Shown: positions 23,011 through 49,454 of the stretch, piece by piece
Numbering within the stretch: the stretch's first letter is position 1
Layout: each line of letters begins with the position of its first letter
Assembly (NCBI GenBank): GCA_016213405.1
Contig: JACRAM010000029.1
Coordinates: 1-51,964, forward strand
Length of the DNA stretch: 51,964 bases
Source of the DNA: Bacteroidota bacterium
GTDB lineage: Bacteria; Bacteroidota; Bacteroidia; Palsa-948
Direction: 5' to 3'
Notes under the pieces: generated by a model
The model's input: only the letters and a program-made list of their open reading frames with translations
What the model was told of the DNA's origin: nothing
Databases searched by the model: none
Translations under genes and position numbers: made by a program

Positions 23011-24418
23011 AATAAAGTTTTACTTGTGTGCTTCCTCCTGATTCAACATTGAATTTCTTTTCTATAGAGTAAACAGTTTCTTTTGCTGAAAGCGGGCGGT
23101 ATACGATTCTGTATTTTCCCGGCTGTAGCACCAGCGCTTCCTGCATGGCATTTGTATTCAGATTGCAAACCCATACAAGTTCATTTTTGTCTTCGAGATA
23201 AACGCTGGAAGGTCCGGGACCTGGTTTGTAAATTCCAACAGATCCAGCTTGCGGGATTTCTATGGTAGTTGTTTTGCTTTGATTGATTTCTACATTATTG
23301 AATTTAATCCTCGGCAAACTCAAAACTTCAAGATCATATTTTCCGATAATGTATTTATCATAGGCATTGAAGTTTTGGATGTGAAGCGTTTTCATCTCTC
23401 CGTTTTTCCTGACGATGCATTCAAGTTTTCCATAAGTGCTCACATTGTCGCCAACCTTCAGATATAAATATCCCTGTGGCGCATCAATGAGAATTTTGTT
23501 GTGCTTCCCCGGTGTGATTTTTATTCCTGTCTTTACCACTTCAGGAATGGTATGCACAACCATTTTATAAGTTCCGATCGGGTCAATAAAAATTGTATCC
23601 GGATTTCCGATATTATTCAGCGTATGCATGAAGTTGTAGCGGATTGCACCCGAGAATTCATCATAAAAAGTTATTGCGACATCTGTTTCGGCTGGCTTTT
23701 TGTTTATGTCAAGCAAATCCACTTCAGCAGTTGTATTGTTCAGCGCCTGTGCGACTACCATGCTCAGAATATTTTTAAAACCAGTTTCGGAAGACGCGTC
23801 ATAAAATTTTCCTATGCACTTGAACGCATCAGCAAAATTCATGTCAAGACCTATGCCGATGACAAAGGGTTTGATGATGACGCCTTTCTTCTGAAGTTCA
23901 AGTGAAACAGCACAGGGGTCGCCATTGCATTCTTCAATTCCATCTGTAATGAGAATAATAACGTTTCTTGCTTTGTTGTCAGGAAAATCATAAGCGCTTC
24001 TTCCAAGCGAGTAGGCGATGGGGGTGGTTCCGGTTGGAGTGAGTGAGTTAATCACCTTTTTCATTTTTGGAATATTGGTCGGAATGATTGCAAAAGGAAC
24101 TTCCAGTTTTGTGTCTTCGCAATTTACCGGACCCGGCCAAAGTGAAAATTGATGTCCGTACACTCTGAGAGCAATTTCTATGTCGGGTGAACTGCTTTTC
24201 ATCAAACTATCCAAAAACTCCGACATTAATTTTTTAGCTATCTCAATTTTTTTTCCGCTCTGCCAGTCACCAAACATGCTGAAGGAATCATCAAAGACAA
24301 AAAGCAATCTGGTTTTCTGCGGAGTGGGTTGACAGATTGCAGATTGCAGATTGCAGATTGAAAAAAATAAAATAAGGAGTAAAAACCTGTAACCTCTAAC
24401 CTGTAACCTGTAACCCAT
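23009..24418 (-). CDS. Exported von Willebrand factor A domain protein
   Basis: About 469 residues from the ATG at 24418, which follows the upstream transketolase stop by one base (TAATATG), suggesting translational coupling. Signal peptide to about residue 31 (ICQ). VWA domain about 37-240 with MIDAS motif DDSFSMFG, the Thr of TGTTPIAYSL, and ITDGIEECNGDPC. The remainder is beta-rich repeats (GTYKMVVHT, GKYDLEVLS, GKYRIVYRP). No C-terminal sorting domain. Probably periplasmic or surface-located; role unknown. The signal-peptide codons are largely made of two heptamer arrays (24333-24360 and 24384-24415), which is unusual. It separates the two transketolase genes without any obvious metabolic link. 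Confidence 0.85.
   Translation of the reverse strand: MGYRLQVRGYRFLLLILFFSICNLQSAICQPTPQKTRLLFVFDDSFSMFGDWQSGKKIEIAKKLMSEFLDSLMKSSSPDIEIALRVYGHQFSLWPGPVNCEDTKLEVPFAIIPTNIPKMKKVINSLTPTGTTPIAYSLGRSAYDFPDNKARNVIILITDGIEECNGDPCAVSLELQKKGVIIKPFVIGIGLDMNFADAFKCIGKFYDASSETGFKNILSMVVAQALNNTTAEVDLLDINKKPAETDVAITFYDEFSGAIRYNFMHTLNNIGNPDTIFIDPIGTYKMVVHTIPEVVKTGIKITPGKHNKILIDAPQGYLYLKVGDNVSTYGKLECIVRKNGEMKTLHIQNFNAYDKYIIGKYDLEVLSLPRIKFNNVEINQSKTTTIEIPQAGSVGIYKPGPGPSSVYLEDKNELVWVCNLNTNAMQEALVLQPGKYRIVYRPLSAKETVYSIEKKFNVESGGSTQVKLY
24333..24360. repeat. Heptamer tandem repeat CAGATTG x4 inside signal-peptide codons
   Basis: Four perfect tandem copies of CAGATTG (+ strand), encoding the end of the signal peptide of the VWA protein (CNLQSAICQ). 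Seven is not a multiple of three, so gain or loss of one unit would shift the frame. Confidence 0.9.
24384..24415. repeat. Heptamer tandem repeat AACCTGT x4 at the VWA start codon
   Basis: Units AACCTGT, AACCTCT, AACCTGT, AACCTGT at 24384-24411, then AACC next to the CAT (24416-24418) that is the start codon on the minus strand. It encodes the first residues GYRLQVRGYRF of the signal peptide. Confidence 0.88.
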
Positions 24419-42181: not shown

Positions 42182-43498
42182 TTAATTAGTTTCCAACACT
42201 GTTCTCAACATATTTAAAGCGGAGAGTCCGGCCCTGTGGATAGTTCGTTCACGATTGCTGCCAAAAAGAAATTTCTCAGAAATTATTTTTTCTGCTGATG
42301 AAACCGAAATCCAAACGGTTCCTATTGGTTTTTCTATACTTCCTCCTGTTGGTCCTGCTATTCCTGTAGTAGCAATTCCGAAATCAGCTTTCAGCCGTAT
42401 CCTTACTCCGCTTGACATTTGCTCAACTACTTCTTTGCTGACAGCTCCATTTGCTTCCAGAATTTTTTCATTCACTTTCAGTACATTTACTTTTATGTCA
42501 TTCGCGTAAGCGATTATTCCTCCATTGAAATAATCAGAACTTCCTGCAATGGAAGTGATGAGATGCCCGATATATCCGCCTGTGCAGCTTTCTGCAACGG
42601 CAAGTGTTTTCTTTTTCTTGCGAAGAATTTCTCCGATTGTCTTTTCAAGAGTTTCAGGTTCTTTTCCGTAATCCTCTATGGCAAAAATGATATCAGGAAT
42701 AATTTTTCTGAGAGAAGTTATTTTTTCGTTAACTGTTTCAGTTAGTTTTTTTTCATCATTGCCTTTGGATGATAAACGAAGTTTAACTTGTCCTGGCGAA
42801 GGAAGATAGGCGAGTTTGATATTCAATGAAGCAAGTGAATCTTCCCATTCTTTTATTTTTTCTGCCAAGGTAGATTCTCCGATTCCCTGCGTGTGAACTG
42901 TTTTGTGAACGATAAATTCTTTCTGAAATCTATTTTTCAGTTCAGGAATAACAAATTCTTCCATCATCGCTTTCATTTCGTAAGGAACACCGGGAAGAGA
43001 AATCCATATTAAGGATTCAGGATTTGGGATTAAGGATTTTTTAAATCCTAAATCCTTATTCCTTAATCCTAAATCATTCTCAAACCACATCCCCGGTGCT
43101 GTGCCATTTTTATTTTTTATTGGAGTGCAGTTTTCCGGAACTTCCGCCTGCCCGCGGTTTGATTCAGGCATTGGAATGTTGCGGGATGAAAACATTTTCT
43201 TCACTTCTTCAAAAATTTCTTCTTTAAAAATAAGTTTTGTATTGAAGAACTCACAAAGAACGGGTTTGGTTATGTCATCGCTTGTGGGACCGAGCCCGCC
43301 TGTGATGAGAATGATGCCTGAACGTTTTTGTGCATCAGAAAATGCTTTCAGCATGTCTTCGCGGTTATCGCCAACAGTGATAAGATGTGTTACAGAAATT
43401 CCGATCAGGTTCAGCTGCTGAGCCATCCATTGGGCGTTGGTGTTGGTGATTTGCCCAATGAGAATTTCGTCACCTATGGAAATTATTTCTGCAAACAT
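42182..43498 (-). CDS. cinA: CinA family protein (NMN deamidase / competence-damage inducible), with in-frame array insertion
   Basis: 438 residues. N-terminal MoaB-like domain (AEIISIGDEILIGQITNTNAQWMAQ, LITGGLGPTSDDITKPVL) and C-terminal CinA domain (VAESCTGGYIGHLITSIAGSSDYFNGGIIAY, IATTGIAGPTGGS, GTVWISV). The family handles pyridine-nucleotide by-products; the C-terminal domain deamidates NMN. Between GTAPGMWFEND and IWISLPGVPYEM, where the family normally has only a few residues, lies LGLRNKDLGFKKSLIPNPES, encoded by an inverted heptamer array (43013-43074). The frame is preserved. Confidence 0.94.
   Translation of the reverse strand: MFAEIISIGDEILIGQITNTNAQWMAQQLNLIGISVTHLITVGDNREDMLKAFSDAQKRSGIILITGGLGPTSDDITKPVLCEFFNTKLIFKEEIFEEVKKMFSSRNIPMPESNRGQAEVPENCTPIKNKNGTAPGMWFENDLGLRNKDLGFKKSLIPNPESLIWISLPGVPYEMKAMMEEFVIPELKNRFQKEFIVHKTVHTQGIGESTLAEKIKEWEDSLASLNIKLAYLPSPGQVKLRLSSKGNDEKKLTETVNEKITSLRKIIPDIIFAIEDYGKEPETLEKTIGEILRKKKKTLAVAESCTGGYIGHLITSIAGSSDYFNGGIIAYANDIKVNVLKVNEKILEANGAVSKEVVEQMSSGVRIRLKADFGIATTGIAGPTGGSIEKPIGTVWISVSSAEKIISEKFLFGSNRERTIHRAGLSALNMLRTVLETN
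43013..43074. repeat. Two-armed heptamer array inserted in frame within cinA
   Basis: GGATT at 43013, 43020, 43027 and 43034 (period 7); the inverse word TCC at 43046, 43053, 43060 and 43067 (period 7). Nine heptamer lengths make 63 bp, 21 codons, so cinA stays in frame. The arms are complementary enough to fold into a hairpin. Confidence 0.88.
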
Positions 43499-48269: not shown

Positions 48270-48842
48270 TGTAACTACACACAATCCTGTAATTCTCCCT
48301 TTAAAATATTTTTCTGTTTTTTTCTTCTCCGAAGGAGATATGCGGATAATTTCCCCTATAGAAATTTAAAATCCAGCATAGATTTATTATTTCTATTGTA
48401 AACCATCAATTTCCATCATGGAAATATTATTTCTGCGATGGATTTATTATTTCTATCATGTAGAAACCAAATAGGGCAGAGGCAAAATTTTTCAAAAACA
48501 ACACAATCAGATACTTTTCCTTTCATTATTTATAAATTACCTGCCTGTAATAATAAATAGCATGAATGTCTCTTATCAATGCTGTGATGTAATTTAAGGA
48601 TACAGACAAGCATTATATAAATGTGATTCTGCATATATAAAGTGCATGTAAGAGAAATTAAATTGCATGCGTGTATTTATAAGATTCATGCCTGCAAAAT
48701 CAACATGCAGGTATTCAATTAATCAGTTTATGCATAGAAAAATAATTTGCAGGCAATTAAATATTTTTTGAATGTGTACGTTACATAATTTCATGTATGC
48801 AAAAGTTAAAGACATGCAAGCATTTATTAAATATAAATTCAC
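48270..48842. other. 573-base gene-free region filled by phased repeat arrays
   Basis: Very AT-rich, no coding capacity on either strand that looks protein-like. It holds a small hairpin TCTCC-GAA-GGAGA (48326-48338), a 20-bp-period array (48341-48460) and a 21-bp-period array (48530-48844), listed separately. The 48481-48529 stretch between the arrays shows no clear unit. Confidence 0.7.
48341..48460. repeat. Degenerate 20-bp tandem array, six units
   Basis: Units begin at 48341, 48361, 48381, 48401, 48421 and 48441. The best copies are at 48381 and 48441, sharing GATTTATTATTTCTAT exactly. The shared core is about A-TTTC-(T/C)AT-CATG. A seventh unit at 48461 is too divergent to count. Confidence 0.75.
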
Positions 48843-48844
48843 AT
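48530..48844. repeat. Degenerate 21-bp tandem array, 15 units, ending at the FN3 start codon
   Basis: Every 21 bases from 48530 an A/T-rich ~10-mer (often WWATAAATTG) is followed by CATG and then about YATGYAW. By my alignment of the 15 units, C is present at column 11 in 11, A at column 12 in 12, G at column 14 in 11 and G at column 18 in 10. Exact CATG at that column: units at 48551, 48635, 48656, 48677, 48782 and 48803. The last unit runs into the ATG at 48843. Confidence 0.8.
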
Positions 48845-49454
48845 GCGAACGCGTTGGTTAGTTGCCATGAAATTATCGCGGGCTGCAGTGCCGCTGCGCA
48901 TCGCTAAAGCCAGGCTTTTTGTTGAAAAGATGACAGGCAATCTGAATTTTCCGTCTCCGAATCCTGCGCTTGCATCCATCACAATTGCCGCCCAAAAACT
49001 GGAGGATGCATATTTAGAAACTCAAACCGGAAAAAAGGAAGCAACGCCAATCATGTATCAAAGGCGGAATGAACTTATGTTGCTGCTCAAAAAACTCTCA
49101 CATTATATAGAAGATATTGCCAATGATTCTCAAAACCCTGAAGCGGTGATAACCAGTGCCGGAATGGAATTTCAAAAAGAAAAGGAAAAGAAAGCGCGTG
49201 TGTTTTCTGTGAAAAACGGAAATTTGAAAGGAGCTGTGAAAGGTATCACAGCATCGGCAGGCATAAGAACAAGTTACCTGTGGCAATACCGCGTTAAAGA
49301 AACTGATGCGTGGATTAGTTCAGGAATTACCATCAATGCGAACCATATCTATAAAAACCTCAAGAGCGGAACCACTTATGAATTCCGCGTAAAAATTATA
49401 ACTGTTCAGGGGGAAGGTGATTGGAGCAATGAACTGGAATTGGTTGTGCTTTGA
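48843..49454 (+). CDS. Fibronectin type III domain protein without signal peptide
   Basis: 203 residues. N-terminal helical region (about 1-100: RAAVPLRIAKARLFVEKMTGNLNFPSPNPALASITIAAQKLEDAYLETQTGKKEA ... LLLKKLSHYIEDIAN), then a C-terminal FN3 domain (about 118-203: IRTSYLWQYRVKETDAWISSG ... LKSGTTYEFRVKIITVQGEGDWSNELELVVL). This two-part layout is a recognisable Bacteroidota small protein family of unknown role. No secretion signal is seen, which is odd for FN3. The start codon is the last element of the 21-bp array, so the array probably is or contains its promoter and leader. Regulation by an array-binding protein is inference. Confidence 0.8.
   Translation: MRTRWLVAMKLSRAAVPLRIAKARLFVEKMTGNLNFPSPNPALASITIAAQKLEDAYLETQTGKKEATPIMYQRRNELMLLLKKLSHYIEDIANDSQNPEAVITSAGMEFQKEKEKKARVFSVKNGNLKGAVKGITASAGIRTSYLWQYRVKETDAWISSGITINANHIYKNLKSGTTYEFRVKIITVQGEGDWSNELELVVL

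Follow-up and report, generated by a model that had tools for sequence, protein, structure and literature searches.

Non-coding arrays of phased near-palindromes beside small FN3-protein genes: spacing and symmetry are kept while unit sequences change

What is the role of a run of degenerate 21-bp units that ends at the start codon of a small FN3-protein gene? The question arose in a stretch of 51,964 nucleotides (hereafter the window), contig 29 of a 3.65-Mb Bacteroidota genome holding 10 matches to the FN3 family studied here. The original prediction saw there either iteron- or operator-like sites facing the same side of the helix or a phased-bend promoter. Here, we argue that the array is non-coding and acts in cis as a series of phased palindromic sites for a dimeric, cooperative binder, coupled to the neighbouring gene. 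We put the probability of this reading, made from sequence comparisons, at roughly 55%. Two features are central to it.

48530 to 48844, no strand assigned: array of 15 units of 21 bp (autocorrelation, column consensus, dyad symmetry, six-frame stops)
48843 to 49454, plus strand: partner gene encoding a 203-residue FN3 protein (Pfam, AlphaFold2)

The array is real. Identity at lag 21 is 0.459 within it, against a dinucleotide-shuffle mean of 0.302 (autocorrelation, z 5.9), with further peaks at lag 42 (0.480, z 6.4) and lag 63 (z 5.2). In 2000 dinucleotide-preserving shuffles no lag between 5 and 69 attained the identity observed at lag 21, so the array passed the comparison on which its existence had been staked. 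In a scan of the entire window the region ranks first for period 21/42, the remaining top signals being mostly repeats of period 18-36 at 1.9-4.7 kb. The fit to the unit is lost in the 21-base rows flanking the array on both sides, and the last unit extends into the start codon of the FN3 gene. The CATG positions first reported (48561, 48645, 48666, 48687, 48792 and 48813) are correct; the same four bases also occur at 48704 and 48842, both out of phase with the 21-bp series. The units are old, with a mean pairwise identity of 0.469 (range 0.24-0.76; expected 0.304), and it is because of this low identity that Tandem Repeats Finder, the kind of search suggested for confirming the period, lists nothing at this place.

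The unit had been described as an A/T-rich 10-mer, CATG and about YATGYAW. The A/T stretch stands, shortened to some 7 bp, and the rest is better written as a degenerate 14-bp palindrome, TTGCATGCATGCAA; column counts over the 21-base rows give the consensus TTATAAAATGCATGCATGCAA. Its dyad self-similarity is 0.83, compared with 0.38 when columns are permuted (P 0.0002). A second short repeat lies in the same intergenic neighbourhood and is possibly a partial or older array.

48409 to 48460, no strand assigned: repeat of period 20, 2.6 copies, unit ATTTCTATCATGGAAATATT, palindromic TTTCYATYATGGAAA (repeat search and sequence)

As predicted, the abutting gene encodes a small FN3 protein and not a replication initiator. 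Pfam places fn3 at residues 146-199 (E 1.3e-6, 28.9 bits for a cut-off of 25), and no Rep family occurs among the neighbouring genes. The AlphaFold2 model, built with 68 relatives (pLDDT 96), consists of a short strand, a four-helix bundle (16-105) and an FN3 sandwich (110-203), the latter superposing on the FN3 of integrin beta4 with a VIA-align Z of 15.1 and an rmsd of 1.5 over 87 residues. With a score above the gathering cut-off and a beta-sandwich, residues 110-203 are thus the C-terminal domain shared with the FN3 proteins (PF00041). Yet, FN3 domains are usually extracellular and part of multidomain proteins, whereas this protein has a single one placed after a helical bundle. Modelled alone, the bundle keeps a pLDDT of 94.5; no significant PDB match came up for it, the best being talin R4 (E 0.95). 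Fold searches with the full-length protein returned FN3 matches only, no known DNA-binding domain was recognised by Pfam or by fold searches, and PHROGs, NCBIfam, PADLOC and Rfam gave FN3-like or marginal matches at most; no close described relative was found. The protein is basic (pI 9.7; median of 107 relatives, 9.0), and inspection of its N-terminus reveals no obvious signal peptide. Pfam assigns the six genes between 44688 and 51816 to TPR proteins, a Por_Secre_tail protein, the FN3 protein and two unknowns, and finds no ATPase among them.

Profile searches revealed about 70 further family members in other genomes, some of which carry more than 10 copies; the highest number is 21, in G006. 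Members occur in records of Bacteroidota, Planctomycetota, Verrucomicrobiota, Acidobacteriota, Methylococcales and Ignavibacteria, many of them metagenome-assembled genomes (MAGs), where binning may err; named records with relatives of the window protein are mostly Bacteroidota. The distribution is patchy, members having turned up in 8 of the 296 genomes sampled from the phylum, and genome-wide counts rest on samples. The searches made in viral contigs, phages and plasmids found no relatives, including a tblastn search of plasmids with a Pedobacter relative (L138).

The linkage between gene and array was counted over 96 distinct family members with both flanks available, an array being counted when it lay no more than 500 bp from the gene and had a period of 20-22 bp or a multiple thereof. 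Such arrays accompany 79 of them (63 upstream, 17 downstream, 1 on both sides) and went undetected in 17, while 24 of 477 control ORFs, drawn from three of the family-bearing genomes, have one. The odds ratio is 88; the p-value, 8e-58, overstates independence because members are mutually related, although almost no two loci have related unit sequences. In the window's own genome four paralogues have clear 21-bp arrays directly upstream, one of them (L008) with nine copies of AACAACCGAAGCATCATCTGT. The expectation that the unit would recur at paralogues was therefore borne out for the array and failed for its wording, since each uses another sequence. FN3 relatives with unrelated upstream DNA had been named as evidence that would count against the array; the sequences there are indeed unrelated, yet the 21-bp arrangement is the same. 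The exact junction with the start codon, found in the window, does not generalise: elsewhere anything from 0 to about 345 bp separates the two, and some arrays lie 3' of the gene. At one locus (L080, G005:C131:24001-26066) two FN3-family genes stand in tandem, and an array was detected upstream of the first only.

Array and gene have also been duplicated together. Two loci in one genome (L105 and L106, G015:C26 and C42) share 1358 bp, comprising array, gene and terminator, at 92.9% identity between unrelated flanks, which implies that array and gene are able to move together. There is no obvious target-site duplication around the shared block.

Which properties of the arrays are kept, and which are replaced? 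Spacing is kept. Arrays have 10-28 units per locus, and 62 of them, with 759 units in all and 24% of cells departing from the consensus of their own array, can be read in a fixed 21-bp phase. The spacing is 21 bp nearly everywhere, with 20 bp at L155, 22/44 at L158, and mixtures of 21 and 22 bp at L088 and of 20 and 21 bp at L060; this spread brackets two turns of B-DNA and does not allow a spacing bound to codons. At L082 the unit sequence switches midway and the 21-bp phase is kept. Higher-order repeats of 42 and 63 bp reveal ongoing duplication of whole units. The unit sequence, on the other hand, is different at almost every locus. Across 59 arrays unit similarity is uncorrelated with protein identity (Spearman 0.0015), except above 70% identity, so that co-evolution of unit and protein was rejected below this value. 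Even genes 78-88% identical in nucleotide sequence (L005/L006, L060/L065/L066, L088/L089) have different arrays.

Symmetry is kept as well. In 61 arrays self-similarity is 0.549 under reverse complement, 0.366 under mirror and 0.242 under complement (p 2e-9); the signal is weaker in arrays next to other genes (0.468 vs 0.355, p 0.04, n=20). The clearest dyads are found in Sphingobacterium pedocola, where the unit is TGTACA followed by 15 nearly free bases, twelve times over, and in an Ignavibacteria MAG, with TATACAtGTATA. FN3-linked arrays also favour A/T at a distance of 5.5 bp from the dyad (z 6.2 over 37 arrays, z 3.6 over the remaining 24), a preference absent in arrays of other genes. 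They may therefore share a weak grammar of their own, but this is only suggestive, since unsupervised alignment recovered a shared motif at just z 2.2 against permuted columns and about 1 against mirrored ones.

These properties point to a protein that binds DNA as the likely mechanism. Near-palindromes repeated every two turns of the helix (20-22 bp, 21 in nearly all cases) would all face the same side of the DNA, and a symmetric, presumably dimeric, protein could assemble cooperatively along them. Array and adjoining small-protein gene would then form one module, which might serve autoregulation, DNA clustering or partition, or the maintenance of a mobile module. The arrays seem to act in cis only, given that one paralogue's unit has no second occurrence in its genome and that TTGCATGCATGCAA recurs elsewhere in the window's genome only as scattered lone copies with 2 mismatches. 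The iteron- or operator-like view in the original prediction thus fits well: units are palindromic, two turns apart, and show neither coding nor RNA covariation. We infer that the leading candidate for the binder at FN3 loci is the basic protein encoded next to the array, because gene and array are linked in both orders and have in one case been duplicated jointly, and because the FN3-linked arrays may have a weak grammar in common. The main argument against it, as read from the sequences, is that the wording of the sites changes faster than the protein, which would be odd for a sequence-specific reader; the binder would have to read shape and spacing, or co-evolve very fast. That arrays stand on either side of the gene, that 17 of the 96 members have no detectable one and that no known DNA-binding domain is recognised also speak against the reading as a whole.

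The same rapid turnover is the best argument for an alternative without any binding partner, in which the array is a by-product of copying in fixed steps of about 21 bp (slippage, unequal exchange or some unknown enzyme), carried along in a duplicating or mobile module. Units that turn over far faster than the gene, to the point that genes 78-88% identical have different arrays, whole-unit duplication that is still continuing, unit sequences unrelated to protein identity and the patchy distribution are all as this account predicts. However, neutral repeats should accumulate indels and drift in period, while 62 arrays hold their phase, and the window array does so at a unit identity of 47%. Copying also leaves unexplained why unrelated arrays have dyad symmetry and why they are so tightly linked to certain gene families. 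We regard it as rather unlikely, with perhaps one chance in five or slightly better.

An action as RNA, with transcribed repeats folding, binding protein or guiding, is improbable. Palindromic units could pair with one another, and the window array touches the start codon and would fall in or near the leader of the transcript. But hairpins were rejected: covariation between dyad-paired columns is absent (mean z 0.06), and eight loci searched gave no Rfam match. Many family members have the array downstream of the gene, and there is no strong strand bias (purine fraction 0.54 upstream, 0.51 downstream). Repeats within an array resemble one another, which is not guide-like, and the unit tested is unmatched elsewhere in the genome. 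The spacing, a multiple of the 10.5-bp helical repeat, fits B-DNA.

Slightly less probable still is an ordinary operator region, through which a host transcription factor would control the FN3 gene. In its favour, a dispersed palindromic motif, TTTCTCCTATGAAAA, occurs near some paralogues. It is found at 42 places in the window's genome with at most 1 mismatch, compared with 10 for the backward pattern, and upstream of L120 it forms four copies of alternating orientation, 20-22 bp apart. It was also seen upstream of L002 and L003, and in degenerate form near the window array.

48350 to 48364, no strand assigned: copy of TTTCTCCTATGAAAA with 3 mismatches, whose membership in the window array is only putative

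A host regulator should nevertheless use one site sequence per genome, and paralogues of the same genome have unrelated units; the window palindrome itself is dispersed only as lone copies. Ten to 28 sites, often 3' of the gene, would be atypical for operators. The phased-bend promoter is not supported: judged by A/T content, the arrays have a 10.5-bp harmonic below random (z -2.8, 45 arrays), they may also lie downstream of genes, and no enrichment of sigma-70-like sites was found in the window region.

The arrays as a class carry neither a coding nor an RNA-pairing signal, and the idea that they encode, or once encoded, heptapeptide-repeat proteins (21 nt being 7 codons), the DNA repeat being secondary, is already refuted as a general explanation and hardly credible otherwise: several arrays do have an open frame with ATG, e.g. 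(NNRSINC)n at L008, (AVDTQEL)n at L166 and (SDHFVPL)n at L173, but a period that is a multiple of 3 gives open frames by chance (34 stops vs 33 in reversed arrays), spacings of 20, 22 or mixed 20/21 and 21/22 bp would shift the frame, and the arrays of the window (11/10/3/10/6/5 stops in the six frames) and of L093 are interrupted in every frame. Neither residue similarity (p 0.56) nor letter permutation (z 0.07) revealed coding, and there is no period-3 signal. A first coding test against permuted columns had been positive (mean z 0.76), misleadingly so because that null breaks conserved blocks; the signal vanished with reversed arrays and letter permutations.

To see how far such arrays extend beyond this family, one may look at sampled sequence. 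In 755 kb from three family-bearing genomes there are 17 more repeats of lag 21, 42 or 63 away from FN3 genes, two of them plainly coding. Five genomes that gave no FN3-family matches, two of them of the same genus, had none in 531 kb, a result that concerns the sampled stretches only, since G004, counted among these genomes, holds one gene of a third family with an array. A second family (STSETGHAxNxxNF..ATGYG..YNP, ~245 aa), with no Pfam match above the cut-off, has a 21-bp array directly 3' of the stop in 4 of 4 full-length copies of the window's genome. The third family (MAKDFVKSNDVQF.., ~247 aa) is represented by L190:14114-14857, and most of its matches lie close to an array. That unrelated families have like arrays, three families having been checked in all, means that the FN3 protein is not the sole partner.

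L242 (G000:C8), L243, L244, L245 and L187:625-1353: loci of the second family
L190:13801-14857, L248-L250 and L253-L255: loci of the third family

A minus-strand gene for a protein of 233 residues (L165:1019-1720) has a layout like that of the third family, with an array about 60 bp upstream. At L173:8623-9110 a 21-bp array next to an SprB-like gene has a 25-bp direct repeat, ATTGGAGGAAAAACTCATTTACCTG, on both sides, which may mark an insertion. The intergenic regions of the window's genome also commonly contain 7-base tandem repeats (CAGATTG, AACCTGT, TAAATCC, AACCTTT and others), often just before starts or after stops, some being inverted pairs around a run of T.

Window 24333-24360, 24384-24415 and 43008-43075; L008:506-543, 787-829 and 1538-1568; flanks of L004 to L006: sites of 7-base repeats

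In plasmids, iterons are tandem, helix-phased direct repeats of about 17-22 bp beside the gene of their binding protein, usually 3-7 in number. The present arrays are likewise tandem, helix-phased and next to a small-protein gene. Unlike iterons, they reach 28 units, are chromosomal and have a unit that differs at every copy in one genome, and the lack of a Rep family among the neighbouring genes sets the locus apart from iteron origins; a literature search on iterons returned nothing. By analogy, the closest known system in behaviour would be type II plasmid partition by ParR/parC. In pSK41 its repeats are 20 bp long and the protein assembles along the repeat array, and the sequence and spacing of parC repeats differ widely between related partition systems (PMC9426499). 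The likeness is that direct repeats follow one another next to the gene of a small protein, at a spacing near two turns as in pSK41, the 15 units of 21 bp being regularly spaced. The arrays described here differ in being chromosomal, in having many modules per genome and 10-28 palindromic units, and in standing on either side of the gene. Nor is the locus a ParMRC system, for the neighbour is a helical bundle with FN3 (Pfam, predicted structure) and not a ParR-type protein, and Pfam recognises no actin-like ParM among the six genes around it. CRISPR and other guide arrays also place repeats beside a dedicated protein gene, but they combine a conserved repeat with foreign unique spacers, whereas the present units are variants of one another, and the partner protein has only marginal PADLOC matches.

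We found no description of FN3-linked 21-bp arrays in the searchable literature, a coverage that leaves out most subscription journals and preprints. The array module is real, widespread and, apparently, undescribed. More tentatively, and with slightly less than even odds in our judgement, it might represent a whole class of chromosomal modules in which a small fast-evolving protein is paired with a private phased palindromic array, spacing and symmetry being kept and wording replaced, so that each module has its own DNA address and several unrelated families share the architecture.

Plasmid origins and centromeres are known to contain arrays of phased sites, each system using a single site sequence. 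In the present case such an architecture is found on chromosomes of at least six phyla, with up to 21 family copies per genome and a new site sequence at nearly each of them. If the neighbour protein binds its own array, these loci would amount to a naturally diversified set of protein-DNA pairs. Otherwise, some process preserves a 21-bp period without preserving the sequence. Either outcome would be new.
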